Translations under genes and position numbers: made by a program
Part shown: positions 6,362-44,283 of the stretch, piece by piece
Position numbering within the stretch: position 1 is the stretch's first letter
How the letters are laid out: each line of letters starts with the position of its first letter
The notes under the pieces: generated by a model
Seen by the model: only the letters and a program-made list of their open reading frames with translations
Told to the model about the DNA's origin: nothing
Database searches by the model: none
Virus record (IMG/VR): IMGVR_UViG_3300037160_000024
Coordinates: 1-44,283 of that record
Source: a virus
Length of the DNA stretch: 44,283 nucleotides
Reading direction: 5' to 3' (one strand)

Positions 6362-8321
6362 CACCGCTCTCACCCCCGCCAAGGAACTCGTCGAGCGTGC
6401 CGAAGAGCGGCGCGGTCAGCAGAGTGGCCGGATCATGATGTACGACCGCTACCTCACCGCCTACTTCCAGGGGCAATCCCCGGACCAGACCGGCGGTGGC
6501 GCGGCGCTCGACAACTACAGCGACGGCCGCCCCGCCCTACGCGCCCCCGGCGAGAACGCGGCGAGCGTCCACGGCGGCCGGGCGAGCCCGAACTACATCA
6601 AGCCGATCATCAAAGACCTCGTGTCCATCAAGGGGCAGTGGCCGAGCCTCACCGTCCAGCCCGCGAGTGGTGATGAGGCCGCCCAGAAGAAGGCGGTGCT
6701 GATCCGCCGCGGACTCGTCCAGCAGCACACTCAGTCGAGCATGGTCAAGCAGTGGCAGCGCGGCGGCTTCTTCGCCTCCTGCCTCGGCGACGCGGTGATC
6801 GCGCTCGACCCGCGCACCCCTGCCGAGGCCAAGGAGCATCCCAACCCCTTCCGTCCCACCGGCATCTACTACAACGTGCTCAACCCCCGCCAGAGTTTTC
6901 CCAAGTTCCGCCAGGGCGGGGGTGATGACGACCTCGAGGATCTGTTCTGGATCAGCCGGATCACTCGCAACGACTGCAAGGCCCAGTACCCGGGCATCCG
7001 CATGACCGAGCAGGACCAGTGGGTCGACGTGATCCACTACTACAGCCGCTCCGAGCGCCAGACCATCGTCAACAAGCAGCGCGCCCACGGGATCGTCCAC
7101 GACCTCGGCTTCTGCCCTGCTGAGTGGATCCCCAACGACGTCACCCTGAGCGGTTTTGGGCAGAGCGACATCGCGGGCATCCTCGACCTCCACTCCGAGA
7201 TGAGCGACCTCTGGAAGGTCTACGTCGACTCCATCTGGGGCAGCGTCTACCCGATCTACGTGATCAAGGATCCGCAGAACACCCAGGGGCAGCTCGAGTA
7301 CGGCCCGGGTGCGCAGTTCACCACCACCGGGACCGGCGACGTGAAGGTGCTGGCTCCCCAGGCGGATGCGCAGAGCGCCCAGTTGATCTTCCACAGCGCG
7401 CTCGACAACATCATGAAGCAGGCCGGGATCAGCCCGATCCGCCTCGAGGGTCAGATCGACCGCTCTAACGTCAGTGCCAAGTCCGTCGACCGCCAGCAGG
7501 CTCCCCAGGAGCAGCGCCTCAAGGCCGCGCTCGAGCTGGCCGGCGCCGGGCTGGAACGGCTCAACTCGAAATGCCTGCTCATGCTCTCGAGCATCAAGGA
7601 GTTCCAGGACGAGCCGATGGAACTCTATGGACAGGACAAGGACGGCACCTACAATGAGACGTTCTCGGGCGCCGACATCGGCGGCTGGACGCGCAACAAG
7701 GTGAAGTGGGACGACATGACCGGCCAGACCCGGCAGGAGGCGTCGATCCAGGCGCTCCAGTTCTTCAAGGAAGGCCAGGGCGACTTCCCCTTCTCGGCGG
7801 TGCTCGAGGCGGGCGGCTTCGACGATCCCACCGAGGTCATGGAGCGCGGCCACTCCGAGATGCAGGAGCGCATGAAGCTCCAGCAGCAGATGCAGCCCCA
7901 GCAACCTCCGGGCGCGCAAGGTGGCGCACCTCCGGGCGCTGGTCCCCCACCAGGAGCGGGAGGTGCAGGAGGCTCTCCGCCCGTGCAACCGCCGCCTCCG
8001 CAGCAAGCGGGCGGGAATGGCACCCCCGCTCCTGGTGGCGAGGATCAGATGCCCAACTTCTCGCCTGTCGCCTCTTCCCCCGCGGGTGGCGGCAAGGGAT
8101 CGCCCGCTCCGGTGCCCGATCCCGCGACCGAACTCGACCAGGCGGTGCATTCGGTGGCGCTCCGGGGCACTGCGGAGATCGTGGCGAGGGGCAGCGGCTG
8201 GGTCATCGACATCACCGACAACGCCGACGCCTCGCGCATCCGCTTCGCGATCAAGCCGATCGAGCAGGCGCTCGGGATCAAGGTCGCGGTGGTGCTGCGG
8301 CCTGCTGACAAGGTGGCGTAG
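6348..8321 (+). CDS. Portal protein, 657 aa
   Basis: This is the dodecameric head vertex through which DNA enters and leaves. The call rests on position directly after TerL, length, and the pattern of an alpha-beta clip/wing portal (e.g. RRGLVQQHTQSSMVKQWQRG, then YYNVLNPRQSFPKF). Two adjacent GTG codons (6348 and 6351) could start it. After about residue 505 there is a Gln/Pro/Gly low-complexity stretch (QQQMQPQQPPGAQGG and onward), then a separate 65-residue C-terminal domain (ITDNADASRIRFAIKPIEQA) not usual for portals. That extension may face the internal virion proteins encoded next. The stop overlaps the next GTG. Confidence 0.8.
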   Translation: MVADSTALTPAKELVERAEERRGQQSGRIMMYDRYLTAYFQGQSPDQTGGGAALDNYSDGRPALRAPGENAASVHGGRASPNYIKPIIKDLVSIKGQWPSLTVQPASGDEAAQKKAVLIRRGLVQQHTQSSMVKQWQRGGFFASCLGDAVIALDPRTPAEAKEHPNPFRPTGIYYNVLNPRQSFPKFRQGGGDDDLEDLFWISRITRNDCKAQYPGIRMTEQDQWVDVIHYYSRSERQTIVNKQRAHGIVHDLGFCPAEWIPNDVTLSGFGQSDIAGILDLHSEMSDLWKVYVDSIWGSVYPIYVIKDPQNTQGQLEYGPGAQFTTTGTGDVKVLAPQADAQSAQLIFHSALDNIMKQAGISPIRLEGQIDRSNVSAKSVDRQQAPQEQRLKAALELAGAGLERLNSKCLLMLSSIKEFQDEPMELYGQDKDGTYNETFSGADIGGWTRNKVKWDDMTGQTRQEASIQALQFFKEGQGDFPFSAVLEAGGFDDPTEVMERGHSEMQERMKLQQQMQPQQPPGAQGGAPPGAGPPPGAGGAGGSPPVQPPPPQQAGGNGTPAPGGEDQMPNFSPVASSPAGGGKGSPAPVPDPATELDQAVHSVALRGTAEIVARGSGWVIDITDNADASRIRFAIKPIEQALGIKVAVVLRPADKVA

Positions 8322-34270: not shown

Positions 34271-34512
34271 GCCTGACCTTTCCTACGCTGACTGACATCC
34301 GCAACTGGGCGCACTCCCTGATCGCCATCCTCGGCGTGGTCGGCATGGGCTATGGGATCGTGGTCAACATCATCGCGACCAGCGACCCAGCGCTCAGCAC
34401 CAAGTACGCCAACTACATCCTGCTGATCGGGGGGATCCTCGCCGGCGCGTCGAAGCTCATCGACAGTGTGAACAACGCGCTCGGGGGGACACCGACACCG
34501 CCCGCTGCCTAG
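34267..34512 (+). CDS. Holin, 81 aa
   Basis: There are two transmembrane helices, about residues 17-38 (SLIAILGVVGMGYGIVVNII) and 47-62 (ANYILLIGGILAGASK). A short polar loop joins them and a Pro/Ala-rich tail follows. With the ATGA overlap to the endolysin, this is the expected pore former that times lysis. Its TAG (34510-34512) shares bases with the TAG of the convergent VRR-NUC gene. Confidence 0.8.
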   Translation: MSLTFPTLTDIRNWAHSLIAILGVVGMGYGIVVNIIATSDPALSTKYANYILLIGGILAGASKLIDSVNNALGGTPTPPAA

Positions 34513-34847
34513 GCCGACAGAACGCGCAGGATTTCGCCGCTGTGCCAGTCAGCAGGGCGCCATGTCAATCCACCAGCGCTCGCTTGATAGAACTTCTCGA
34601 GCCATATGCGCTGCGCCTCTGTCGGGTTCTTCCCGGTAGCCTTGAGTTCAACAGCGAGCGTCTTTGGTGGCTTCAGCAGGATGAGGTCCGGGAAGCCCTT
34701 GCCGTCTCCCTGTACGGGCGTCCGGTAGCCACGGGCGGTCATGGCCGGCCGAGCGTGGAAACTACGCCAACCGTAGAGCCTCGCGAGATCCAGGACGCAT
34801 TCGAGCAACTTGGCTTCGCTCATGCTCCTGAAGGCGGGAGTGCTCAC
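34509..34847 (-). CDS. VRR-NUC nuclease, 112 aa
   Basis: This is a PD-(D/E)XK-type nuclease. GKGFPDLILLKPPKTLAVEL followed by KATG gives the Asp and the E-x-K of the active site; YRTPVQGDG precedes, and AQRIWLEKFYQASAGG closes the fold. VRR-NUC domains act on branched or flapped DNA, which fits a phage recombination set with RecT. GTG at 34847 overlaps the previous TGA (GTGA); the internal ATG at 34823 is the alternative. It is the last gene of the early operon. Confidence 0.85.
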   Translation of the reverse strand: MSTPAFRSMSEAKLLECVLDLARLYGWRSFHARPAMTARGYRTPVQGDGKGFPDLILLKPPKTLAVELKATGKNPTEAQRIWLEKFYQASAGGLTWRPADWHSGEILRVLSA

Positions 34848-35083
34848 AGCGCCAACGCCTGCTGCTGCGGCTGCTCGAGGTAGTAGCGGGCGACCGGGTG
34901 CTCGTGCCGGTGCCATCCACAGGTCGCCGTGCGGATCGGCACGCCGTCGCGCCGCAGCTCGCTGATGCGATTGCGCGCGGTGTACGAGAGTTCGAGCGGG
35001 AGGTCCGCGACGCACAGGCTGCCCCAGAGCTTGAGGTGCTCGTGGATGCGCTGCTTCTGGGTGACGAGAGTCGGGGTCGTCAT
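34844..35083 (-). CDS. Winged-HTH protein, 79 aa
   Basis: QKQRIHEHLKLWGSLCVADL, then ARNRISELRRDGVPIRTATC, is the helix-turn-helix-wing pattern found in many small phage regulators, ending with HPVARYYLEQ. It probably binds DNA as a small transcription factor; the target is unknown. ATG overlaps the previous TGA. Its start, MTTPTLV, preserves ACCCCGACT from the leader repeat of the genes upstream, so it may be a decayed member. Confidence 0.7.
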   Translation of the reverse strand: MTTPTLVTQKQRIHEHLKLWGSLCVADLPLELSYTARNRISELRRDGVPIRTATCGWHRHEHPVARYYLEQPQQQALAL

Positions 35084-35214
35084 GGACGCCTCACCGATCC
35101 CCACACATGCAGACGCCATCCACCATCGACGTCCGTTATGCGCTCCCACCATAGCCAGGAGCGATGACGCCAACCCGTGCGAATGCTCCTGATAGTCGGG
35201 GTTCTCGCGCTCAC
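35080..35214 (-). CDS. Leader-bearing small protein, 44 aa
   Basis: GTG at 35214 overlaps the previous TGA and the stop overlaps the next ATG, so the gene fits the slot exactly. It reads MSARTPTIRSIRTGWRHRSW and on, Trp/Arg-rich and basic. The first seven residues are the shared leader in its short form. No family is recognised. Confidence 0.55.
   Translation of the reverse strand: MSARTPTIRSIRTGWRHRSWLWWERITDVDGGWRLHVWGSVRRP
35191..35214 (-). repeat. Leader repeat, short form
   Basis: Reads GTGAGCGCGAGAACCCCGAC then TATC; it lacks the 12 bases that encode the S-P-P-V part. The same short form occurs at 40418-40444. Confidence 0.8.
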
Positions 35215-35585
35215 CGAACGGACCCCAGACGCACAACCGACTTCCGATACACGTCGCCACCGCTGTACTCGAATTTGTAGACCCCACTCGGCCAGTCGAT
35301 CCTCGGCAGGTCGCCTTCACCGTAGACGATGTATCCCGGCCAGCCGTCGTACTCATGTGTTGTCCATTCGATCTCGGCGTCGAGGGTTCCGACGTACTGC
35401 TCCACGCAACGACGCAGCACGAAGGTTCCTGTGAACGGCGATACGGCACGTACGATCCAGAGGCCGGGCTTCTTTGCGGCGACGACATTGAGGGACACGC
35501 ACCGGGCGCGCACGTCCTCCAACACCTTCTGTTCGACTTCCGGGATCTCGGTGACTGGCGGGCTAGTCGGGGTTCTCGCGCTCAC
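35211..35585 (-). CDS. Leader-bearing protein, 124 aa
   Basis: GTG at 35585 overlaps the previous TGA; GGGAG lies eight bases upstream. The leader is MSARTPTSPPV. The body (KVLEDVRARCVSLNVVAAKK, then YIVYGEGDLPRIDWPSGVYK) is a compact alpha/beta domain ending in a Tyr-rich strand. No family is recognised. An open extension to 35627 is a shadow. Confidence 0.65.
   Translation of the reverse strand: MSARTPTSPPVTEIPEVEQKVLEDVRARCVSLNVVAAKKPGLWIVRAVSPFTGTFVLRRCVEQYVGTLDAEIEWTTHEYDGWPGYIVYGEGDLPRIDWPSGVYKFEYSGGDVYRKSVVRLGSVR
35551..35585 (-). repeat. Leader repeat, long form
   Basis: Codes MSARTPTSPPV and then diverges; identical bases to the 36225-36266 copy over 30 positions. Confidence 0.85.
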
Positions 35586-35773
35586 GCGAAGCACTCCCGG
35601 CTGATGTACCGCTTGCAAGGACACCACTCATCGGTCAGCCTGCCCCTGGCACACGACCCGTCGCTGACGTGCAAATGCTTCGGATGGCCGCAGACGCACA
35701 GCCCAGACTTGCTCTCGATAACTGGCGGGTTCTCCTTCGTGCTGATAACTGGCGGGCTAGTCGGGGTTCTCAT
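35582..35773 (-). CDS. Leader-bearing zinc-binding protein, 63 aa
   Basis: ATG at 35773. Leader MRTPTSPPVI is followed by a second, partial leader (PPVIES) 26 bp downstream. The body has LCVCGHPKHLHVSDGSCARG and WCPC, a Cys/His set for a zinc site known from small actinophage proteins. Function is unknown. Stop and start overlap both neighbours. Confidence 0.7.
   Translation of the reverse strand: MRTPTSPPVISTKENPPVIESKSGLCVCGHPKHLHVSDGSCARGRLTDEWCPCKRYISRECFA
35711..35773 (-). repeat. Leader repeat, tandem double copy
   Basis: One full copy next to the ATG (35743-35773) and a second partial one (35711-35729). GATAACTGGCGGG occurs on the + strand at 35717 and again at 35743. Confidence 0.85.
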
Positions 35774-36018
35774 ACCTTCAAGACCTCCCCCGTTTCGAGG
35801 TTCGCCCCGTAATAGCCAGGAATCTCAGGAAGACCATGGGCGAGCGCATAGCGATGGATCGCTCGGTGTGCCTCTTGCCACGCCGTCTGTGACCAGGAGG
35901 TCACGCCGTCGAAGCTGATGACCGGGGTCTTCTGCGCCCGGGCGACTAACTCGCGACACTCTAGGCGCTCGGCGTCGGTCAGGATAATGCCGGTCGGAAT
36001 CGGGGTTCTCGCGCTCAC
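35770..36018 (-). CDS. Leader-bearing protein, 82 aa
   Basis: GTG at 36018 with GGAGGG six bases before it. The leader variant is MSARTPIPTGI. The body is helical (TDAERLECRELVARAQKTPV) and ends GYYGANLETGEVLKV. No family is recognised. Confidence 0.65.
   Translation of the reverse strand: MSARTPIPTGIILTDAERLECRELVARAQKTPVISFDGVTSWSQTAWQEAHRAIHRYALAHGLPEIPGYYGANLETGEVLKV
35983..36018 (-). repeat. Leader repeat, Ile variant
   Basis: Start-proximal 22 bases match the long form except for one base that changes Thr 7 to Ile; similarity fades after the eighth codon. Confidence 0.75.
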
Positions 36019-36266
36019 GGATAGCCCTCCACGGCTTCGTTGATCCGCTCGCGAAGCACCATCGGCGCGGTGTACGGGTCGTTGTTCAGCAGGTAACCAC
36101 GGGCCTCGCGCAGCAGGTCGCGAGCTTCCTTGAGCAGCGCGCCGCAGCGGAGCGCCTCACCCTCCCAGCAGCCAATGCAGTCGGGGTCGTGACGCGAATG
36201 GACGCACGGATGCCGCCCTTCCTCGCTCTCGATAACTGGCGGGCTAGTCGGGGTTCTCGCGCTCAC
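36015..36266 (-). CDS. Leader-bearing Cys-rich protein, 83 aa
   Basis: GTG at 36266 with GGAGAG seven bases before it; the longer frame to 36473 is a shadow of the gene upstream. Full leader MSARTPTSPPVIES. Then HPCVHSRHDPDCIGCWEGEA provides Cys/His for a metal, followed by two helices (LLKEARDLLREARGYLLNND). Function is unknown. Confidence 0.65.
   Translation of the reverse strand: MSARTPTSPPVIESEEGRHPCVHSRHDPDCIGCWEGEALRCGALLKEARDLLREARGYLLNNDPYTAPMVLRERINEAVEGYP
36225..36266 (-). repeat. Leader repeat, full 42-bp copy
   Basis: The most complete copy: from the GTG through codon 14 (MSARTPTSPPVIES). Useful as the reference for the family. Confidence 0.9.
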
Positions 36267-36649
36267 CGAGAGGCTCTCCGTTGCGCGTCGATCCATTCGT
36301 CGATGTCCAGCGCGGCACTGTCGATCCGTTTCAGCAGCGTCCAGAGCGCCTCCTTCTCGGCCACCTGGCGCAGACACTCCTCGTACTGAAGTTGGTGGGC
36401 TGCCTTGAGCCGTTCGATGTCCGCGTCCCGAGACGCCAGAGCATGGATCCAGTGGATGTGCTCGACATGCCATTCGTGCCGCTCGTCAGCCGTGGCGTGG
36501 TAGGGATTGGCGTGGAACGCGGGCCGCGCACAGATGACGCCGATGCGCTTCCCCTCGCCGTCTGGGACATAGGTGATGAACTCCGAAACGTCGCCACAAA
36601 GCGCCACGTCCGGGCTCTCGATAACGGGCGGGCTAGTCGGGGTTCTCAT
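36263..36649 (-). CDS. Leader-bearing coiled-coil protein, 128 aa
   Basis: ATG at 36649 with GGAGAG five bases before it. Leader MRTPTSPPVIES. Residues 15-60 contain Cys and His (LCGDV, VICARPAFHAN, ERHEWHVEHIHW), possibly a metal site. Residues 75-125 are a coiled coil (DADIERLKAAHQLQYEECLR). No family is recognised. Confidence 0.65.
   Translation of the reverse strand: MRTPTSPPVIESPDVALCGDVSEFITYVPDGEGKRIGVICARPAFHANPYHATADERHEWHVEHIHWIHALASRDADIERLKAAHQLQYEECLRQVAEKEALWTLLKRIDSAALDIDEWIDAQRRASR
36614..36649 (-). repeat. Leader repeat, ATG form
   Basis: Begins ATGAGAACCCCGACTAGCCC; the S-A codons are missing, and one base (C for A, wobble) differs in the P-V junction. Confidence 0.9.
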
Positions 36650-36930
36650 GAAATCTCTCCATGCGCCCTGAGCCATGAGTCCGTGCCCTGGAAGAAGCCG
36701 CAGTGCTGGCACGGGCGTGTCAAGGTCGCATCGGGGTAGTGGTAGTCGCTCCGGTGTCCGCATGGTTGGAGCCGTGACGGACCCTCCCACTCACCCAGCC
36801 GGTCGAAGTACCAGACACGCTGCCCACAGGTGTCACAGGCCAGCATCTGGTTCGCCGGATAGAGCCGATGACCGGACCAACCGAGGCGACACAAGAGCCT
36901 GATAAGCCACCCACGAATCGGGGTACTCAC
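36646..36930 (-). CDS. Zinc-ribbon protein with reduced leader, 94 aa
   Basis: GTG at 36930 overlaps the previous TGA. The leader is reduced to MSTPIRG. Pairs MLACDTCGQRVWYF, LQPCGHRSDYHY and RPCQHCGFFQG form a two-part zinc ribbon. Possible nucleic-acid or protein binding; no family is recognised. Confidence 0.65.
   Translation of the reverse strand: MSTPIRGWLIRLLCRLGWSGHRLYPANQMLACDTCGQRVWYFDRLGEWEGPSRLQPCGHRSDYHYPDATLTRPCQHCGFFQGTDSWLRAHGEIS
36915..36930 (-). repeat. Leader repeat, degenerate copy
   Basis: GTGAGTACCCCGATTC keeps only the start and the ACCCCGATTC core shared with the Ile variant at 35983-36018. Confidence 0.55.
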
Positions 36931-37208
36931 GAGCTTGGCCTACAGAGGTCGAGCATCCGACCGAGGTTCTCGACCGCTCCCTCGTTGCCGTTGCAGACCC
37001 GCTGACCGGCGTTCCACAGCGCCTCGTTCTGCTGGCGAAGCGCCCACTCGATGTGCGAGCGGACGCTGTCGGCGTCCGGCCAGTCAGAGCGTCCACAGGC
37101 GCAGCGGTAGATGTGCTCGTGGCCGTCGAAGGCGAGGGCGTGCTCACCGCTCCACCCGAAGGCCGGATCGTCGGGCCTGATAACGCCGTCGGTAGTCGGG
37201 GTTCTCAT
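36927..37208 (-). CDS. Leader-bearing CxC protein, 93 aa
   Basis: ATG at 37208. Leader MRTPTTDGVI. The body has HEHIYRCACGRSDWPDADSV, a Cys-His site typical of small phage zinc proteins, then a helix (IEWALRQQNEALWNAG). Function is unknown. Both ends overlap neighbours. Confidence 0.65.
   Translation of the reverse strand: MRTPTTDGVIRPDDPAFGWSGEHALAFDGHEHIYRCACGRSDWPDADSVRSHIEWALRQQNEALWNAGQRVCNGNEGAVENLGRMLDLCRPSS
37176..37208 (-). repeat. Leader repeat, partly diverged
   Basis: ATGAGAACCCCGACTACC is kept, then GACGGCG replaces the Pro-Pro part, and GTTATCAGG returns to the family. Confidence 0.75.
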
Positions 37209-37669
37209 GCGGTCAACTCCATCGTGAGCGCGACGATCGCGTCACTCCACGACGGGCAGAAGGTCACCTGTGGGAGCAGGCAAAAGACGTTCTCCCGGTG
37301 GCCGACGACGAAAATCCGCTTGCCCATCCCGAGCGCGATGCCGAACTCGACGTGCCGACCTCCTCGGGAATTGGTGCTGCGCGGCTCCTCGGTGAAGCAC
37401 ACCACGACGCCCGCCGCGGTCACGTCGCGCCAGTCGTCCTCAGCGAACCGTAGCGCCTCGGGCGGGATCGTCTCGGCTGCCTGGGCCTCACCGGCGCCGT
37501 CCCACTGGTGCGCGCCGCCGAGCCACGTCGCCTGGACGCGCCACCCGACGTGCCCGAAGATGTGGTCAAGCTGCGCGGCGTAGCGGCACAATTCCTCGCG
37601 CCGAGAGTACCGAGCGGCGAGGTAGATCGTGTTCTCGATAACTGGCGGGGTAGTCGGGGTTCTCGTCAC
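37205..37669 (-). CDS. Leader-bearing nucleoside 2-deoxyribosyltransferase-like enzyme, 154 aa
   Basis: After the leader MTRTPTTPPVIEN the domain begins TIYLAARYSRREELCRYAAQ. It continues with RFAEDDWRDVTAAGVVVCFT (Asp 79, Asp 82) and RHVEFGIALGMGKRIFVVG, where Glu 108 is the expected nucleophile. These are the marks of the nucleoside deoxyribosyltransferase fold, which includes base-exchange enzymes and nucleotide hydrolases. A part in nucleotide salvage or base modification during infection is inferred. GTG at 37669 shares one base with the RecT TAG. Confidence 0.8.
   Translation of the reverse strand: MTRTPTTPPVIENTIYLAARYSRREELCRYAAQLDHIFGHVGWRVQATWLGGAHQWDGAGEAQAAETIPPEALRFAEDDWRDVTAAGVVVCFTEEPRSTNSRGGRHVEFGIALGMGKRIFVVGHRENVFCLLPQVTFCPSWSDAIVALTMELTA
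37631..37669 (-). repeat. Leader repeat, MTR form
   Basis: GTGACGAGAACCCCGACTAC, then CCCGCCAGTTATCGAGAAC: 13 codons of leader, with ACG replacing the AGC-GCG pair. Confidence 0.9.
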
Positions 37670-38898
37670 TAGGGCAGCCCGGCCATGGCGTCGGACACAG
37701 CCACGAGCTTGTCCTGCTCGAGCCCGAGCATCCAGTCGCCGAGGGATTCGCCGCCCTTCCAGCCGAACTCGTCCAGGAGGCCGCGCATCTCGATCGCAGC
37801 GTGCGGTGGCCGCGGGCGGATGAAGTGCTGGTACACGGCGTTGCGCATGGCCTGGTTGGCGTCCTCTGGCGCGACCGGCTCGGGAATGGGCGCGTTCTCC
37901 GCACTCGCCGGTACAGCAACCACGTCTTCGCCGTCGAGTGTATCGCGCTCGCTCTCCGACTGCACGGCAGAGTCGTTCGCGTCGACAGGTTCAGGCGCGA
38001 ATGCATCCTCTCGCTCCCAGGAGTGGACGCCCTCATGGCCTGCGGCGAACCAGCAGGAGTTCACGTCGCCGTCCTCGGCGCGGCACACGATACGCTCTCC
38101 CGGCTCTAGGACGGGCTCTGCGGCCCCCGCGAGCGTCAGGTGCTCGGGAGTGCCCCTCACGGCATCGCGCACCTCCTGGGGCGGTGGGAACGTCGCAAAG
38201 CATGATCCACAGCGCAGGTAGGCGCCACCGTTGCGCCCAGCCTCGAGGTACAGCGCGCCGTGGAAGCAGGTGGCGCACTGTCCGAAGCTCTGGCGGTGGT
38301 CGATCTGGTGCTCAACCTTGGCCACGTCGATCACGCGGGCCTCGTCGAGTTCGTCGACCTCGGGTTGGATCGCGATCAGCTTGTCGGCGAAGTGCCGGCG
38401 GGCGACCCGGCGCACCGTCCAGGCGTAGAGCATGTCCTCGGGGATACTGACCCACTGGGAGGGCTGGCCGGCCTTGGACGGCTCGAAGTAGCGTGCGGGG
38501 ATGTCGGCGATGGTGACCGTGAGCGTCTGGGGCTGGCGTCCCTTGCGCTGGAAGCGGATGGTGCAGTGCTTGGCGTCGGTGTCCGTCTCCCATGCCTCGC
38601 AGTCGCCGCTCTGTTGAATCCGCGCGCTGGTGAGCGCCGCGCTCGGGAGCATCTGAATCCGCCCGCCGCGGCCGGGGATGAGGTAGATCTCGCGCATGGC
38701 TGCGAGGGGGTTGAGCCCGACCTCGGCGCCGTAGATCATCACCACGAGTGCCTGTTGGGGCGTCACGTTGCCGAACAGGCCGGAGCGCGCGATGGTGTCC
38801 GCGAACCGGGTCAGGTCAGCGATGTTCTGGGGCATGAAGCGAGCGAGCGAGGTGGTCGGGTCGCTCGCCGGCAGGTTGACGATGTTGGCCTCGCTCAC
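37669..38898 (-). CDS. recT: RecT-family annealase with zinc-ribbon and C-terminal extensions, 409 aa
   Basis: This single-strand annealing recombinase pairs complementary strands during phage recombination and replication. The RecT core is at residues 20-195: FADTIARSGLFGNVTPQQAL, VVMIYGAEVGLNPLAAMREI, RGGRIQMLPSAALTSARIQQ, and SIPEDMLYAWTVRRVARRHF. Unusually, a zinc ribbon follows (Cys 208, 211, 230, 233), then a Cys-Cys-His-His group (272, 282, 288, 292), an acidic Pro-rich linker (300-348) and a helical C-terminal domain (349-409). No partner exonuclease of the RecE/lambda-exo type is seen; the VRR-NUC gene ends the same operon. GTG at 38898 overlaps the previous TGA; the open frame to 39006 is rejected. 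Confidence 0.88.
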   Translation of the reverse strand: MSEANIVNLPASDPTTSLARFMPQNIADLTRFADTIARSGLFGNVTPQQALVVMIYGAEVGLNPLAAMREIYLIPGRGGRIQMLPSAALTSARIQQSGDCEAWETDTDAKHCTIRFQRKGRQPQTLTVTIADIPARYFEPSKAGQPSQWVSIPEDMLYAWTVRRVARRHFADKLIAIQPEVDELDEARVIDVAKVEHQIDHRQSFGQCATCFHGALYLEAGRNGGAYLRCGSCFATFPPPQEVRDAVRGTPEHLTLAGAAEPVLEPGERIVCRAEDGDVNSCWFAAGHEGVHSWEREDAFAPEPVDANDSAVQSESERDTLDGEDVVAVPASAENAPIPEPVAPEDANQAMRNAVYQHFIRPRPPHAAIEMRGLLDEFGWKGGESLGDWMLGLEQDKLVAVSDAMAGLP

Positions 38899-39161
38899 TG
38901 CGGCAGGTTCCCGTAGCGAGCGTCGACCAGCTTCATTACGTGGACGCGGCGGAGCGGGCCGTCGGCGCCTTCGGTGTCGATCTGCTCGTACTTGATGCCG
39001 ACACACTCCACCTCGAGGACCATGCGCGTGACCTCGCCGATCGTGAACTGACGCGGCGTCGGTGCGAGTGCTTCGCGGAACACCTTGGTTGCTCCGGTCA
39101 ACGTGACGGTCGCGGCTCTGACGGTCTGCCCCTCGAAGAGGCTCAGTTGGTCATTGGTCAT
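38895..39161 (-). CDS. Small RecT-associated protein with sliding-clamp motif, 88 aa
   Basis: It starts MTNDQLSLFEGQTV. QLSLF is a canonical bacterial beta-clamp-binding pentapeptide, here at residues 5-9. The rest is an alpha/beta domain (ITGATKV-like strands, MVLEVECVGIKYEQIDTEGA). Proteins with such starts often sit beside recombination genes in actinophages, as I recall. Tethering recombination to the host replisome is an attractive inference. The stop overlaps the recT GTG. Confidence 0.65.
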   Translation of the reverse strand: MTNDQLSLFEGQTVRAATVTLTGATKVFREALAPTPRQFTIGEVTRMVLEVECVGIKYEQIDTEGADGPLRRVHVMKLVDARYGNLPQ

Positions 39162-39318
39162 CGGTGATCCCCTTGAGGCGCTTGTCGATTTCTTTCAGCT
39201 TCAATTCGGCGCGCTTGATTGACAGTGCCATGAGTTCACGCTCACGCCTGAGCTTGCCCTGCTTCGAGAGGCCGCTCTCGTAGGCCAGCGGCGGCAGGTG
39301 GTCGAGTGGGTTGCTCAT
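39151..39318 (-). CDS. Helical protein, 55 aa
   Basis: ATG at 39318 overlaps the preceding TGA and the stop lies inside the next gene by 11 bases. It reads MSNPLDHLPPLAYESGLSKQ, then a charged helix (KRAELKLKEIDKRLKGITDD), so a coiled coil is likely. Function is unknown. It fills the gap between two well-supported genes. Confidence 0.6.
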   Translation of the reverse strand: MSNPLDHLPPLAYESGLSKQGKLRRERELMALSIKRAELKLKEIDKRLKGITDDQ

Positions 39319-39761
39319 CTCACTCCTAGCGCGCCGTCCGGCTTGCGGGCTTCGCGCACCTTCTCCGCTGCTTCTCCGCCCTGCTTGATGACGTTGGACG
39401 CCGCGTACTTGTCCACGGTCCAGGACACCTCGTATTGCACGTCGGGCACCTCCTCGAGCGCCAGGGAGAGGATACGTTCGATCTTCTCGATCATGTCGCT
39501 GGTGAAGGTGACCTTGCCGCCCGTCAGCAGCGACGGCATCACGACCTTGATGATCTCGCTGTCCCAGGAGTAGCCGTCGGGCACGATCTCGAGCAGGCCA
39601 GCGGGAGTACGCACCGGGCCGCCTTCCTTGACGTAATCGGTGAGCCTGCGGCTGGTGACGTAGAGGAACGAGCGAATCTGCTTGATCTCAGCGAAGTGTT
39701 CGGCGTACCAGGATGCCAATTCCTCGAGAGTGCTGTCGGAGGGCAGATCGAGCAAGGTCAT
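39315..39761 (-). CDS. Hypothetical protein of the recombination operon, 148 aa
   Basis: It begins MTLLDLPSDSTLEELASWYA. It has a helical N-terminus, a central strand segment (VRTPAGLLEIVPDGYSWDSE) and a long C-terminal helix pair. Not recognised; position two genes upstream of recT suggests a partner or regulator of recombination. ATG overlaps the 17-codon gene before it. Confidence 0.65.
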   Translation of the reverse strand: MTLLDLPSDSTLEELASWYAEHFAEIKQIRSFLYVTSRRLTDYVKEGGPVRTPAGLLEIVPDGYSWDSEIIKVVMPSLLTGGKVTFTSDMIEKIERILSLALEEVPDVQYEVSWTVDKYAASNVIKQGGEAAEKVREARKPDGALGVR

Positions 39762-39811
39762 AGCCGCGTGTCCACCGCTGTCCGTAGGGCGTCGAGGTTG
39801 CGCTGATTCAC
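39758..39811 (-). CDS. 17-codon minigene
   Basis: GTG at 39811 overlaps the previous TGA (GTGA) and its own TGA overlaps the next ATG (ATGA), encoding MNQRNLDALRTAVDTRL. The exact fit at both ends suggests that ribosomes pass through it. It may be a true amphipathic micropeptide or only a coupling bridge. Confidence 0.4.
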   Translation of the reverse strand: MNQRNLDALRTAVDTRL

Positions 39812-40152
39812 TTCCGTACCCCTGCGATCACGAGCCGCTTCTCATCCTCAAATGGCGAGAGGAGGAGGGTGGTCGGCAAGGGCAGCAGCGGGTACACCCA
39901 GGTGAACGCGCTCAGCGCGATATGGCCGTTCTCGTTGACCTTGAGCCCGAGCCCGTTGTCCGACGGTACGAGGCTGAAGTTGCCATCGCCTCCTTCCCGC
40001 TCGAAGCGCACCACGCCGGCGCGTTTACCATCGAACAAAAACTCCCGAGCGTTGGCGTTCAGGTAGCCGATCGTCTTGTTCGTGAGGCGCAGTTCGTAGC
40101 CCTCACGACGGTTCCATGCCTTGCGCGTTGGTTTGACTGCTTCCCAATTCAT
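39808..40152 (-). CDS. First gene of the RecT operon, 114 aa, unknown
   Basis: ATG at 40152 starts seven bases after a TAGCAT -10 box, so the message is probably leaderless; an upstream extension to 40221 crosses the promoter and is rejected. The sequence RLTNKTIGYLNANAREFLFD, then AGVVRFEREGGDGNFSLVPS, looks like a small beta-rich domain. No family is recognised. As the promoter-proximal gene it would be made most strongly. Confidence 0.65.
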   Translation of the reverse strand: MNWEAVKPTRKAWNRREGYELRLTNKTIGYLNANAREFLFDGKRAGVVRFEREGGDGNFSLVPSDNGLGLKVNENGHIALSAFTWVYPLLPLPTTLLLSPFEDEKRLVIAGVRK

Positions 40153-40159
40153 AGACGCG

Positions 40160-40188
40160 ATGCTACATGCTTCTGAGTGGTACGTCAA
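40160..40188 (-). promoter_or_regulatory. Leaderless promoter of the RecT operon
   Basis: On the minus strand: TTGACG (40188-40183), 17 bases, TAGCAT (40165-40160), seven bases, ATG at 40152. This is the best-matched leaderless promoter in the window and would drive genes 40152 to 34509. Confidence 0.75.
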
Positions 40189-40260
40189 TTGGCGTTCACA
40201 AACAAACAGAGCCCCGGTCACACCCGAGGCTCGCTGGTTCGCCGTGGCGATGGCTGTCGG

Positions 40261-40444
40261 TTACGAGCGTGAGCGCCGCAGGATGCCCGGACACTGGCGG
40301 TAGAGTTGTCCGCCGTCGTACTCGGCGATGATGGAGCGGTCGCAGGTGTCGCCGGCCTTGACGCGGTTGACCTTTGGCGTAGAGCTGGGCGCCGCAGCGG
40401 TCACAGCGCAGCAGGTTGCTCTTGATAGTCGGGGTTCTCGTCAC
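40261..40444 (-). pseudogene. Leader-bearing zinc protein with +1 frameshift, about 60 aa
   Basis: GTG at 40444 gives MTRTPTIKSNLLRCDRCGAQ then LYAKG. From about 40370 the sensible reading moves by one base: RVKAGDTCDRSIIAEYDGGQ, then LYRQCPGILRRSRS and TAA at 40263-40261. In the unshifted frame the text becomes Arg/His nonsense. CDRC, TC and QC supply a zinc ribbon only if both parts are joined. A one-base indel, a sequencing error or programmed frameshifting could explain it. It starts one base after the previous TGA. Confidence 0.55.
40418..40444 (-). repeat. Leader repeat, isolated short copy
   Basis: Lies about 2.7 kb from the rest, in a different operon. It combines the MTR start of the 37669 copy with the 12-base deletion of the 35214 copy. 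Confidence 0.8.
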
Positions 40445-42298: not shown

Positions 42299-42316
42299 GC
42301 GCTTATGATCTCAAAC

Positions 42317-42425
42317 CACCACGAGAATGTGGTGACAGCGCTGTTACGAAATCGAACGATTCAGCAACGGAAACCCGGTCTCTTGTGGAGCTTCGCGCGT
42401 TTGCCGGCGTAACGCACGCGTTACG
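42317..42425. promoter_or_regulatory. Cluster of four palindromes upstream of the HTH gene
   Basis: In 109 bases: CACCAC-N6-GTGGTG (42317-42334); ACAGCGCTGT (42335-42344), extendable to 16 bp with one mismatch; AATCGAACGATT (42350-42361); and CGTAACGCACGCGTTACG (42408-42425), a perfect 18-bp arm pair with a 2-base centre. Probable operator region. The 12-mer and 18-mer are the strongest sites. Confidence 0.6.
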
Positions 42426-42429
42426 GACG

Positions 42430-42985
42430 ACGGTCTGCTATGGCAGCCCTACCATGGGTGCGTCGCTACGTGAGCACCTGCGTCGTGGCAGTGTCTCGTC
42501 ACGTCGACGTTACAGCAAAGCCATCGTGCGACCTTCGCCTTGTCGACGTCATCGCGTTGCTTGATGCATTGAGCTTCGATGTGGGTCTGCGTGTAGTGGC
42601 TCTGAGCACGCGCGGCTGCGACGCTGAGCCCACCCCCCACCCCCTGGGGCCTCATGGGGTACTGTCCCGTCCTCACCCCGGTCTTTCATTCCATTCCGCT
42701 GTCTGAGTGAGTTGTCCCAATCGCAACGAATGCACCACTGTGTGACGTTTCGGGGCCCTGGGCTGCTCTCCAAGAGCGGCAACCTTGTTCCAATCACCAC
42801 AGACATGGTCCTGCGGACGCCCTCCCCCCTTCGGGGACTTTGACCCCAACCGTAGCGGTGGATTCGCAGGGCTTCGTGGCTGGTGTCTTCCCGCGGCGGG
42901 TTCCGATGGCACGAAGCAGATGCCCGTTCCCGGGTGACCGTGACCATGCCTTGCCTTCTCGCTGGGGGATGCGGCCCCCTGTGAG
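42430..42985. other. Gene-poor stretch, no supported gene
   Basis: About 550 bases between the operator cluster and the end of the gene at 42986. Open frames exist on both strands but they are Arg/Pro/Ser-rich shadows without ribosome sites or overlaps. Short G/C-rich inverted arms occur (for example TCCCC-CCTTC-GGGGA near 42822). It could hold an origin or a control region; I see no decisive signal. Confidence 0.4.
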
Positions 42986-43243
42986 CTACGAGGGGGTCGA
43001 AGTGAGTGTGATCGTGTCGTGGAGGAAGGCCCACTGCTTCGGGGACTTCCAGGTGAGGGTGAAGTTGCGTCGGTCAGCGGTTGTTGGCCGGTCATCCCGG
43101 CAAGGGATCCCGAGGTTGTTGCAGGACCAGAACTCGGCGTATGCCTGCTGGGTCCGTCTGCCGACGCCTGAGGGGTGATGGAGGCCCGGGGCGCCACAGC
43201 GTGGGCACTGGTTCAGGTCGGACGCGGTGGCGACGGTTCTCAC
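42986..43243 (-). CDS. Zinc-ribbon protein, 85 aa
   Basis: GTG at 43243 overlaps the previous TGA. NQCPRCGAPGLHHPSGVGRR, then FWSCNNLGIPC, gives four Cys and His for a ribbon. The C-terminus (FTLTWKSPKQWAFLHDTITL) is a strand-helix segment. Function is unknown. It is the last gene before the gap. Confidence 0.6.
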   Translation of the reverse strand: MRTVATASDLNQCPRCGAPGLHHPSGVGRRTQQAYAEFWSCNNLGIPCRDDRPTTADRRNFTLTWKSPKQWAFLHDTITLTSTPS

Positions 43244-43807: not shown

Positions 43808-43995
43808 GGCCGGGGGAATCCGTTCGGAACGCGGACGAGGTGATCGGTGGGGAGCCCGGGAAGCTGCATCCGGCTGCTCGCGAAGCTGACTCGCTCCGAG
43901 CGCGTGATCGGCCCCTGGCAGAGCGGGCAGGACGACGGCATCGGCGCTGAGCGGAAGTAGCGCTTGCACTTCGGGCAGCAGGCTTCGAGGATCAC
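43804..43995 (-). CDS. Zinc-ribbon protein, 63 aa
   Basis: GTG at 43995 overlaps the previous TGA. The first 44 residues (MILEACCPKCKRYFRSAP, then MPSSCPLCQGPITR) duplicate those of the gene across the joint; the last 19 (LPGLPTDHLVRVPNGFPRP) are unique. CPKC and CPLC form a ribbon. Probably arose by tandem duplication. Confidence 0.7.
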   Translation of the reverse strand: MILEACCPKCKRYFRSAPMPSSCPLCQGPITRSERVSFASSRMQLPGLPTDHLVRVPNGFPRP

Positions 43996-43996
43996 G
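43865..43996. repeat. Internal copy of the terminal repeat (about 132 bp)
   Basis: From about 43865 the sequence matches the joint sequence (44179-44283 plus 101-127) base for base until position 128 of the left end, where G replaces C. It lies 314 bp from the right terminal copy, so this is a short tandem-type duplication that covers the starts of two zinc-ribbon genes. Confidence 0.9.
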
Positions 43997-44283
43997 CCTC
44001 AACCCCGTACTTCTGGCGAAACGCGGCGGCTCTGCCCTTGGCGGTGAGGAAGATCTGCTGACGCTGCGGGATCGAACCGTGGTCCCAGTTGCCCATGCGA
44101 GCCCAACCCCAGTTCACTCGTCTCGGGCAGTCGTCAGCGTGGCGACGTGTGCCGGGAGCGTGAACACAACAGAGAAGTTGCATCCGGCTGCTCGCGAAGC
44201 TGACTCGCTCCGAGCGCGTGATCGGCCCCTGGCAGAGCGGGCAGGACGACGGCATCGGCGCTGAGCGGAAGTAGCGCTTGCAC
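43992..44283 (-). CDS. Zinc-ribbon protein, 3' part (begins at 126 across the joint)
   Basis: Within the window the frame is open to the right edge; on the circular map it starts at the GTG of 126 and is 105 residues long. N-terminal half equals the neighbour at 43804-43995. The C-terminal half (CCVHAPGTRRHADDCP, then TAKGRAAAFRQKYGVEA) resembles the end of the gene at 123-311. The protein is thus a chimera of its two neighbours. Confidence 0.7.
   Translation of the reverse strand, partial: CKRYFRSAPMPSSCPLCQGPITRSERVSFASSRMQLLCCVHAPGTRRHADDCPRRVNWGWARMGNWDHGSIPQRQQIFLTAKGRAAAFRQKYGVEA
44184..44283. repeat. Terminal direct repeat, right copy (100 bp)
   Basis: Exact copy of bases 1-100. Joining the two copies keeps a left-pointing reading frame open across the joint: the 5' end lies at 126-1 and the 3' end at 44183-43992, 318 bases and 105 codons plus stop. 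This supports a circular map of 44183 bp. Confidence 0.95.

Follow-up and report, generated by a model that had tools for sequence, protein, structure and literature searches.

Why do ten neighbouring genes that encode unrelated proteins begin with the same short piece of DNA? The genes lie on the minus strand of the IMG/VR virus record IMGVR_UViG_3300037160_000024, and the window that we analysed is the whole record (44,283 nucleotides, nt). A preliminary description had reported a shared core at the starts of these genes, which we call the leader, and had read the locus as an array of exchangeable cassettes. All ten of its start coordinates are correct (we name each gene by its start), and the leader array is present as described: the repeat is real.

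A repeated leader at the starts of unrelated genes

The core of the leader is the 14-mer GAGAACCCCGACTA, which occurs exactly eight times in the window. All eight copies are on the minus strand and in frame, 0-8 nt after a start codon. For an 18-mer extension of the core (GAGAACCCCGACTAGCCC, up to three mismatches), we found eight matches, versus 0.02 expected from dinucleotide-preserving shuffles. We also scanned both strands, without gaps and with a cut-off score of 14, for a 42-nt consensus taken from the copy at 36266 (GTGAGCGCGAGAACCCCGACTAGCCCGCCAGTTATCGAGAGC). Ten matches score at least 14, all on the minus strand. Nine of these sit 0-4 nt from a start codon, and the tenth, at +44 inside gene 35773, is a second, stacked copy. 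The best match elsewhere in the window scores 12.5. The copies are confined to 34.8-40.4 kb of the window (about 5.6 kb). The ten reported leaders are not equally good: there are eight copies of the core and a tandem double in gene 35773, but the leader of 36018 is partial and that of 36930 is weak. Further degenerate copies are present at 35083 and 34847. The copies, with a gene on either side, are as follows.

40418..40444, minus strand: leader copy, short form (GTGAC + core + ATCAAGAGC), at the start of gene 40444
37669..38898, minus strand: gene for a RecT-family single-strand annealing protein, directly upstream of the array (PF03837, E 5e-10; phrog_561, E 2e-15)
37631..37669, minus strand: leader copy, full form (GTGAC + core), at the start of the deoxyribosyltransferase-like gene 37669-37205
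37173..37208, minus strand: leader copy (ATGAGAACCCCGACTACCGACGGCGTTATCAGGCCC), the closest to the leader in the contig G001 (31/36 nt; see below)
36898..36930, minus strand: weak leader copy (GAGTACCCCGATT...TTATCAGG; also written GTGAGTACCCCGATT...TTATCAGG)
36614..36649, minus strand: leader copy, full form (ATG + core)
36225..36266, minus strand: leader copy, full 42-nt form, serving as the consensus
35980..36018, minus strand: partial leader copy (GAGAACCCCGATT), with the 5' end GTGAGCGC and a diverged 3' half (GATTCCGACCGGCATTATCCTG)
35711..35773, minus strand: two stacked leaders, a complete core form and then a second copy with a 9-nt internal deletion
35544..35585, minus strand: leader copy, full form, with 32 nt identical to 36266
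35185..35214, minus strand: leader copy, short form (GTGAGCGC + core + ATCAGGAGC)
35069..35083, minus strand: degenerate copy (ATGACGACCCCGACT) at the next gene, 35083
34824..34847, minus strand: degenerate leader (GTGAGCACTCCCGCCTTCAGGAGC) before the ATG to which the VRR-NUC genes of the other phages align
34509..34847, minus strand: VRR-NUC nuclease gene that closes the array (PF08774, E 1e-6); its orthologue in the contig L079 has a near-perfect leader

The leader encodes M-(SA/T)-R-T-P-T-S-P-P-V-I-E-S, with R/S-T-P as the most constant part. Upstream of the start codons, we found no sequence that is common to the copies. At eight of ten junctions, the start overlaps the preceding stop codon by 4 nt (ATGA or GTGA), and the stop codon of the preceding gene is thus part of the leader. 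The claim that each leader overlaps the previous stop needs amending for the other two: 37669 overlaps by 1 nt (TAGTG) and 40444 has no overlap. Similarly, most copies do have their own Shine-Dalgarno-like sequence upstream (of the GGAG, GGGAG, or GGAGGG type), but it is weak at 37669 and 36930. Past residue 16, the bodies of the proteins have no reliable similarity to one another, as had been reported; one pair is marginal (37208 and 36649, E 0.04-0.7). The GC (guanine plus cytosine) content of the bodies is not clearly heterogeneous, so composition is no proof of a foreign origin. A scan for promoters and terminators found no enrichment.

Is it the DNA or the peptide that is conserved? The preliminary description argued for the DNA, on the grounds that wobble bases are kept, and we agree. 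AGA accounts for 0.8-2.2% of the genome's arginine codons and ACT for 5% of its threonine codons, and each is used in 9/9 of the copies that keep the residue. Across all copies in three phages (the window and the two contigs described below), 53 codon differences from the consensus are nonsynonymous and 6 are synonymous. (These counts are descriptive, as the copies are not independent and the codons were aligned by hand.) In a conserved peptide domain, synonymous changes should exceed nonsynonymous ones, and here they do not. Because nonsynonymous differences dominate and very rare codons are retained, these comparisons support conservation of the DNA and suggest that purifying selection on the peptide does not account for it. 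There is a counter-example: the VRR-NUC leaders of the window and of L079 both encode TPA, with 3/3 codons differing (ACT CCC GCC versus ACC CCG GCA). We found no RNA fold common to the leaders. The predicted accessibility of the start is no better at leaders than at other genes (0.38 versus 0.42-0.43 unpaired).

The leader in other phages

Two contigs of uncertain completeness complete our comparison of three phages. G001 (IMGVR 3300021420_000084) is a 37.7-kb phage contig that was reached by a pattern scan of viral contigs, and L079 (3300014501_000252) was reached via VRR-NUC. Both share with the window only a distant early module with RecT and VRR-NUC. Between G001 and the window, the RecT region has 28% amino acid and 47% nucleotide identity (G001 has no match to the RecT profile itself), a gene homologous to 39161 has 27% amino acid identity, and VRR-NUC has 54% amino acid and 56% nucleotide identity.

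The preliminary description had proposed searching for the core in related phages and comparing the genes that follow it. In both contigs, non-homologous genes follow the leader. Gene 11774-11373 of G001 opens with ATGAGAACCCCGACTACCGAGCAACTTATCAGGCCC, which is identical to the window's leader 37208 at 31/36 nt, and its body has no match to gene 37208 beyond residue 22. The chance of at least 31/36 at a background identity of 0.60 is 0.0007, a figure that is uncorrected for picking the closest of about ten leaders. The VRR-NUC gene of L079 starts with GTGAGCGTGAGAACCCCGGCA and continues immediately with ATGTCGGAG, which is the point where the window and G001 proteins become alignable. Its leader, just before the ATG (GTGAGCGTGAGAACCCCG), matches the window consensus at 17 of the first 18 nt, unlike the diverged leader of the window's own VRR-NUC orthologue. 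The preceding gene in L079 (gene 401) starts with MSPAIPPVIV and has the 13-mer CCGCCAGTTATCG in common with the second half of the leader.

A homologue of the deoxyribosyltransferase-like gene 37669 in Rhizobium phage RHph_TM26 starts with MKLTKNIYIAAKYQRR where the window has MTRTPTTPPVIENTIYLAARYSRR, and it has no leader. (This is one gene only.) Since this homologue is leaderless and since G001 and L079 have leaders on other genes, the leader is, judging from these alignments, something added to gene bodies, and it is better conserved than the genes that it accompanies.

Possible roles: joint between genes or expression signal

We lean, with a little less than even confidence, towards the view that accessory genes in a tailed phage's early operon are shuffled at the leader, which would be a translated joint where one gene stops and the next one starts. 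This is the best single account; an expression element comes next, and the two are not exclusive. At a shuffling joint, the 5' end of the leader (ATGA or GTGA) would give the upstream gene its stop and the downstream gene its start, and the body would run on in frame, so a crossover or strand annealing between two leaders would break neither frame. Such an event would join the end of the upstream gene, with its Shine-Dalgarno sequence, to a new body. Accessory genes could then be gained, lost, or swapped as cassettes, and copying of one leader onto another would keep the leader DNA uniform. The phage's RecT, which the preliminary description had correctly placed just upstream of the array, would be a plausible annealing enzyme. 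We infer that recombination at the leader is the cause of the pattern, that RecT is the agent, and that the arrangement is useful to the phage. A bolder version, which we consider possible but doubtful, is that the phage has a system for gene capture. The leader, translated in frame and both stop and start, would be a universal joint that a RecT-type annealing protein uses to put unrelated accessory genes together in arrays and to rearrange them, and it would be passed between unrelated phages of the same hosts.

The variants of the leader are suggestive of exchange. There are two 5' types, GTGAC and GTGAGCGC, and two 3' types, the full one and one that lacks 12 nt, and all four combinations are present (genes 40444, 37669, 36266, and 35214). 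This is the pattern that exchange inside the core would leave, and such exchange would explain it directly. The idea of a cassette array gains further support from the leaders on non-homologous genes elsewhere, the leaderless homologue, the stacked leaders, and the adjacent RecT-family gene. Only 4/55 pairs of copies have identical runs of at least 23 nt (23-32 nt); these four reach the lower limit of the 23-27 bp published for the minimal pairing segment of Red-beta (PMC3945230).

Several points weigh against a shuffling joint. First, most pairs of leaders share fewer than 23 identical nt. Second, the four combinations would also result if the same 12-nt deletion arose twice via its TA...TA ends. 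Third, G001 has only one clear copy, and no relative is close enough to reveal the presence or absence of genes at the leader. Fourth, recombination alone gives no reason for the leader to keep its exact position at start codons or its reading frame. Finally, the persistence of the same DNA in three lineages is unexplained unless exchange between them is frequent.

There are precedents for repeats at gene boundaries. In cluster O mycobacteriophages, a 17-bp repeat lies on both sides of a gene, and relatives have just one copy of it (PMC4351075), and conserved boundary sequences have been considered for lambdoid phages (discussed in PMC3029335). As in those cases, we see the same short DNA between non-homologous genes, and gene gain or loss by recombination is the inference drawn. 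The cluster O repeats differ in being palindromic and not tied to starts, and for them a gene has been observed to be present or absent at the repeat; the leader is bound to starts. Phage genomes are mosaics, and shared sequence at the mosaic joints is seldom visible (PMC3029335). If the leader is a joint, then its translated copies at the starts of ten unrelated genes, found again in distant phages, would offer an unusual case of a joining sequence that is still readable and directly testable.

If the leader is instead an expression element, then it would be a start-associated signal inside coding sequence, of a kind that gene callers and searches based on ribosome-binding sites miss. Either way, unrelated phage proteins can be mistaken for relatives when their N-termini are identical. 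As an expression element, the DNA or RNA after the start codon would be bound by a phage or host factor, or would set initiation, re-initiation, or early elongation at the overlapping stop and start. We think this somewhat unlikely as the explanation. All copies are at starts and in the transcribed orientation, and the DNA is conserved over the peptide, including the rare codons AGA and ACT at codons 2-7. The related phages also have other start-associated repeats that include the ribosome site: L079 has CCCCCCGTCCCCAGGAGAGATGAAATGAGC twice and CCCGCCCCGATCCAGAGGAGCC three times, and G001 has AAGGAGGCAACGGCGTGA/AAGGAGGCAACAGCATGA. Because of these, start-associated repeats seem to be usual in this phage group. 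On the other hand, in-frame deletions make the copies unequal in length, their spacing from the start codon varies, there is neither a common RNA fold nor a gain in accessibility, and the genes between the 40444 and 37669 copies, including recT, have no leader.

Such an element would be a coding counterpart of the start-associated sequences (SAS) of cluster K mycobacteriophages, which the preliminary description had raised as an alternative. The SAS is a 13-bp motif (GGGATAGGAGCCC, with no more than two mismatches) that directly precedes the start and lies at the ribosome site (PMC3203893). SAS and similar motifs are common in actinophages: there is an SAS-like motif in Microbacterium cluster EF phages, and start-associated repeats occur in several Microbacterium phage clusters (PMC7302621; see also PMC12699233). 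Like SAS and the Extended SAS (PMC3203893, PMC7302621, PMC12699233), the leader is a short asymmetric repeat that is found many times in a single orientation where unrelated genes start, and the function of SAS itself is unproven, as for the leader. But SAS is upstream and contains the ribosome-binding site, whereas the leader begins no earlier than the start codon, is translated, extends up to 42 nt, and does not include the ribosome site, which belongs to the upstream gene. Because we found neither a shared motif upstream at the ribosome site nor the 17-bp imperfect inverted repeat upstream that marks the Extended SAS, the leader is not a member of SAS; by its features, we would file it as a coding-side variant of the start-associated repeats known in actinophages. 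A repeat in the halovirus Hardycor1 overlaps three gene starts and yields identical N-termini, MNANT (PMC7911831). The leader likewise gives different proteins identical N-termini, but the Hardycor1 repeat is mainly intergenic, upstream, and at few genes, whereas the leader is on the coding side, at ten or more genes, and in other lineages as well.

It is improbable that the leader serves as a shared N-terminal peptide, perhaps a propeptide, for targeting, stabilising, or tagging early proteins that are otherwise unrelated. The leader is always translated and in frame, R/S-T-P is its most constant part, TPA is kept with different codons in the VRR-NUC leaders (STPA in the window, RTPA in L079), and gene 401 of L079 starts with MSPAIPPVIV, as noted above. 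But the excess of nonsynonymous differences and the rare codons disfavour the targeting tag that had been suggested, and the second half of the leader is deleted or replaced in several genes. Also, L079 and G001 have leader-like open reading frames (ORFs) of 12-16 codons without a body, and the Pfam matches in the scanned genes, the one kind of prohead-related evidence that was sought, showed no protease.

We consider it very unlikely that the leaders are a residue of tandem duplication. On that view, a single junction was copied again and again, its bodies then diverged or gave way to others, and the leader now does nothing. The copies in the stretch 36649-35585 are the most alike, leaders are stacked in 35773, and the bodies are too diverged to compare. 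However, near-identical leaders stand next to bodies without residual similarity, and the same leader DNA is found in two lineages whose shared genes are 47-64% identical at the DNA level.

Stoperators are found near gene junctions, are shorter and spread through the genome, and are bound by a repressor. Repressor-binding sites of this type are the least probable explanation: the leader is an asymmetric motif in a single orientation with transcription, at stop/start junctions, as cluster A mycobacteriophage stoperators are asymmetric repeats oriented with transcription (PMC4351075), and the window encodes a small helix-turn-helix-like protein (42298-41783, a weak match), but the conserved unit is up to 42 bp, coding, and codon-phased, all copies are at starts within one module instead of at promoters, operators, and intergenic DNA genome-wide, the non-coding region 42300-43240 has no copies, and no integrase or repressor was found in the genes scanned.

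Genome setting and other repeats

The window is probably close to a complete tailed-phage genome, since its ends repeat imperfectly (1-180 versus 43870-44049, 94%). Besides this terminal repeat, there is a short tandem duplication at the right end (43860-43969 and 44174-44283), and the genome is probably circular or terminally redundant, with an untidy assembly end. Virion genes are on the plus strand (terminase, phrog_38; portal, phrog_104; SU10-type capsid, PF17236; and an SU10 adaptor). An early-type module occupies the minus strand from 44 to 34.5 kb and holds RecT (38898-37669) and the VRR-NUC nuclease (34847-34509). Upstream of the first early genes, a gene-poor region of about 900 nt (42300-43240) is a candidate site for early promoters or an origin.

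Among named phages, nucleotide and protein searches found no DNA-level relative of the window and no relative of the array, RecT, or the terminase, and the 42-mer gave only matches with E=8. When four proteins (deoxyribosyltransferase, RecT, terminase, and capsid) were used to scan viral contigs, no close relative came up, although such relatives may be absent from the collections searched. A degenerate peptide pattern had no viral match. Of 40 viral contigs with GAGAACCCCGACTANC, only L017 has it in frame at a real gene start with TTATCAGG downstream; we took the others to be chance matches, like those in L069-L071. Nine bacterial matches to a 20-mer are apparent coding coincidences, mostly in one conserved Corynebacterium gene. 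In 397 genomes from the phylum of an Acidimicrobiales metagenome-assembled genome, VRR-NUC had one match, and its surroundings show no leader.

The related contigs contain several other repeats. L079 has two more families of junction repeats (L079:14-406 and 59-1340) that span the Shine-Dalgarno sequence as well as the overlapping start; one has two copies (CCCCAGGAGAGATGAAATGAGC) and the other three (GCCCCGATCCAGAGGAGCC). They accompany ORFs of 13-27 codons that resemble leaders without a body. In G001 (L078:6936-6959 and 7157-7180), a start repeat that contains a Shine-Dalgarno sequence, AAGGAGGCAACRGCRTGA, is present at two genes, and a third related copy (GGAGGCAACCGAATGA) precedes gene 13386 (L067). 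G001 also has a 12-codon ORF (L067:10961-10999), MPKATPILAVKR, which contains GCAACCCCGATT and whose stop overlaps the start of a DNA-methyltransferase-like gene; it too resembles a leader without a body. Another start, (A/G)TGAGTGATGACATTGTGACCCGACTACG (MSDDIVTRLR), is common to different genes, twice in one phage (L085:9386 and 9564) and once in another (L082:7905). Finally, G001 (L078:5624-5893) has a tandem 12-nt repeat, similar to GCCGCGTGGGCC, with about 16 copies.

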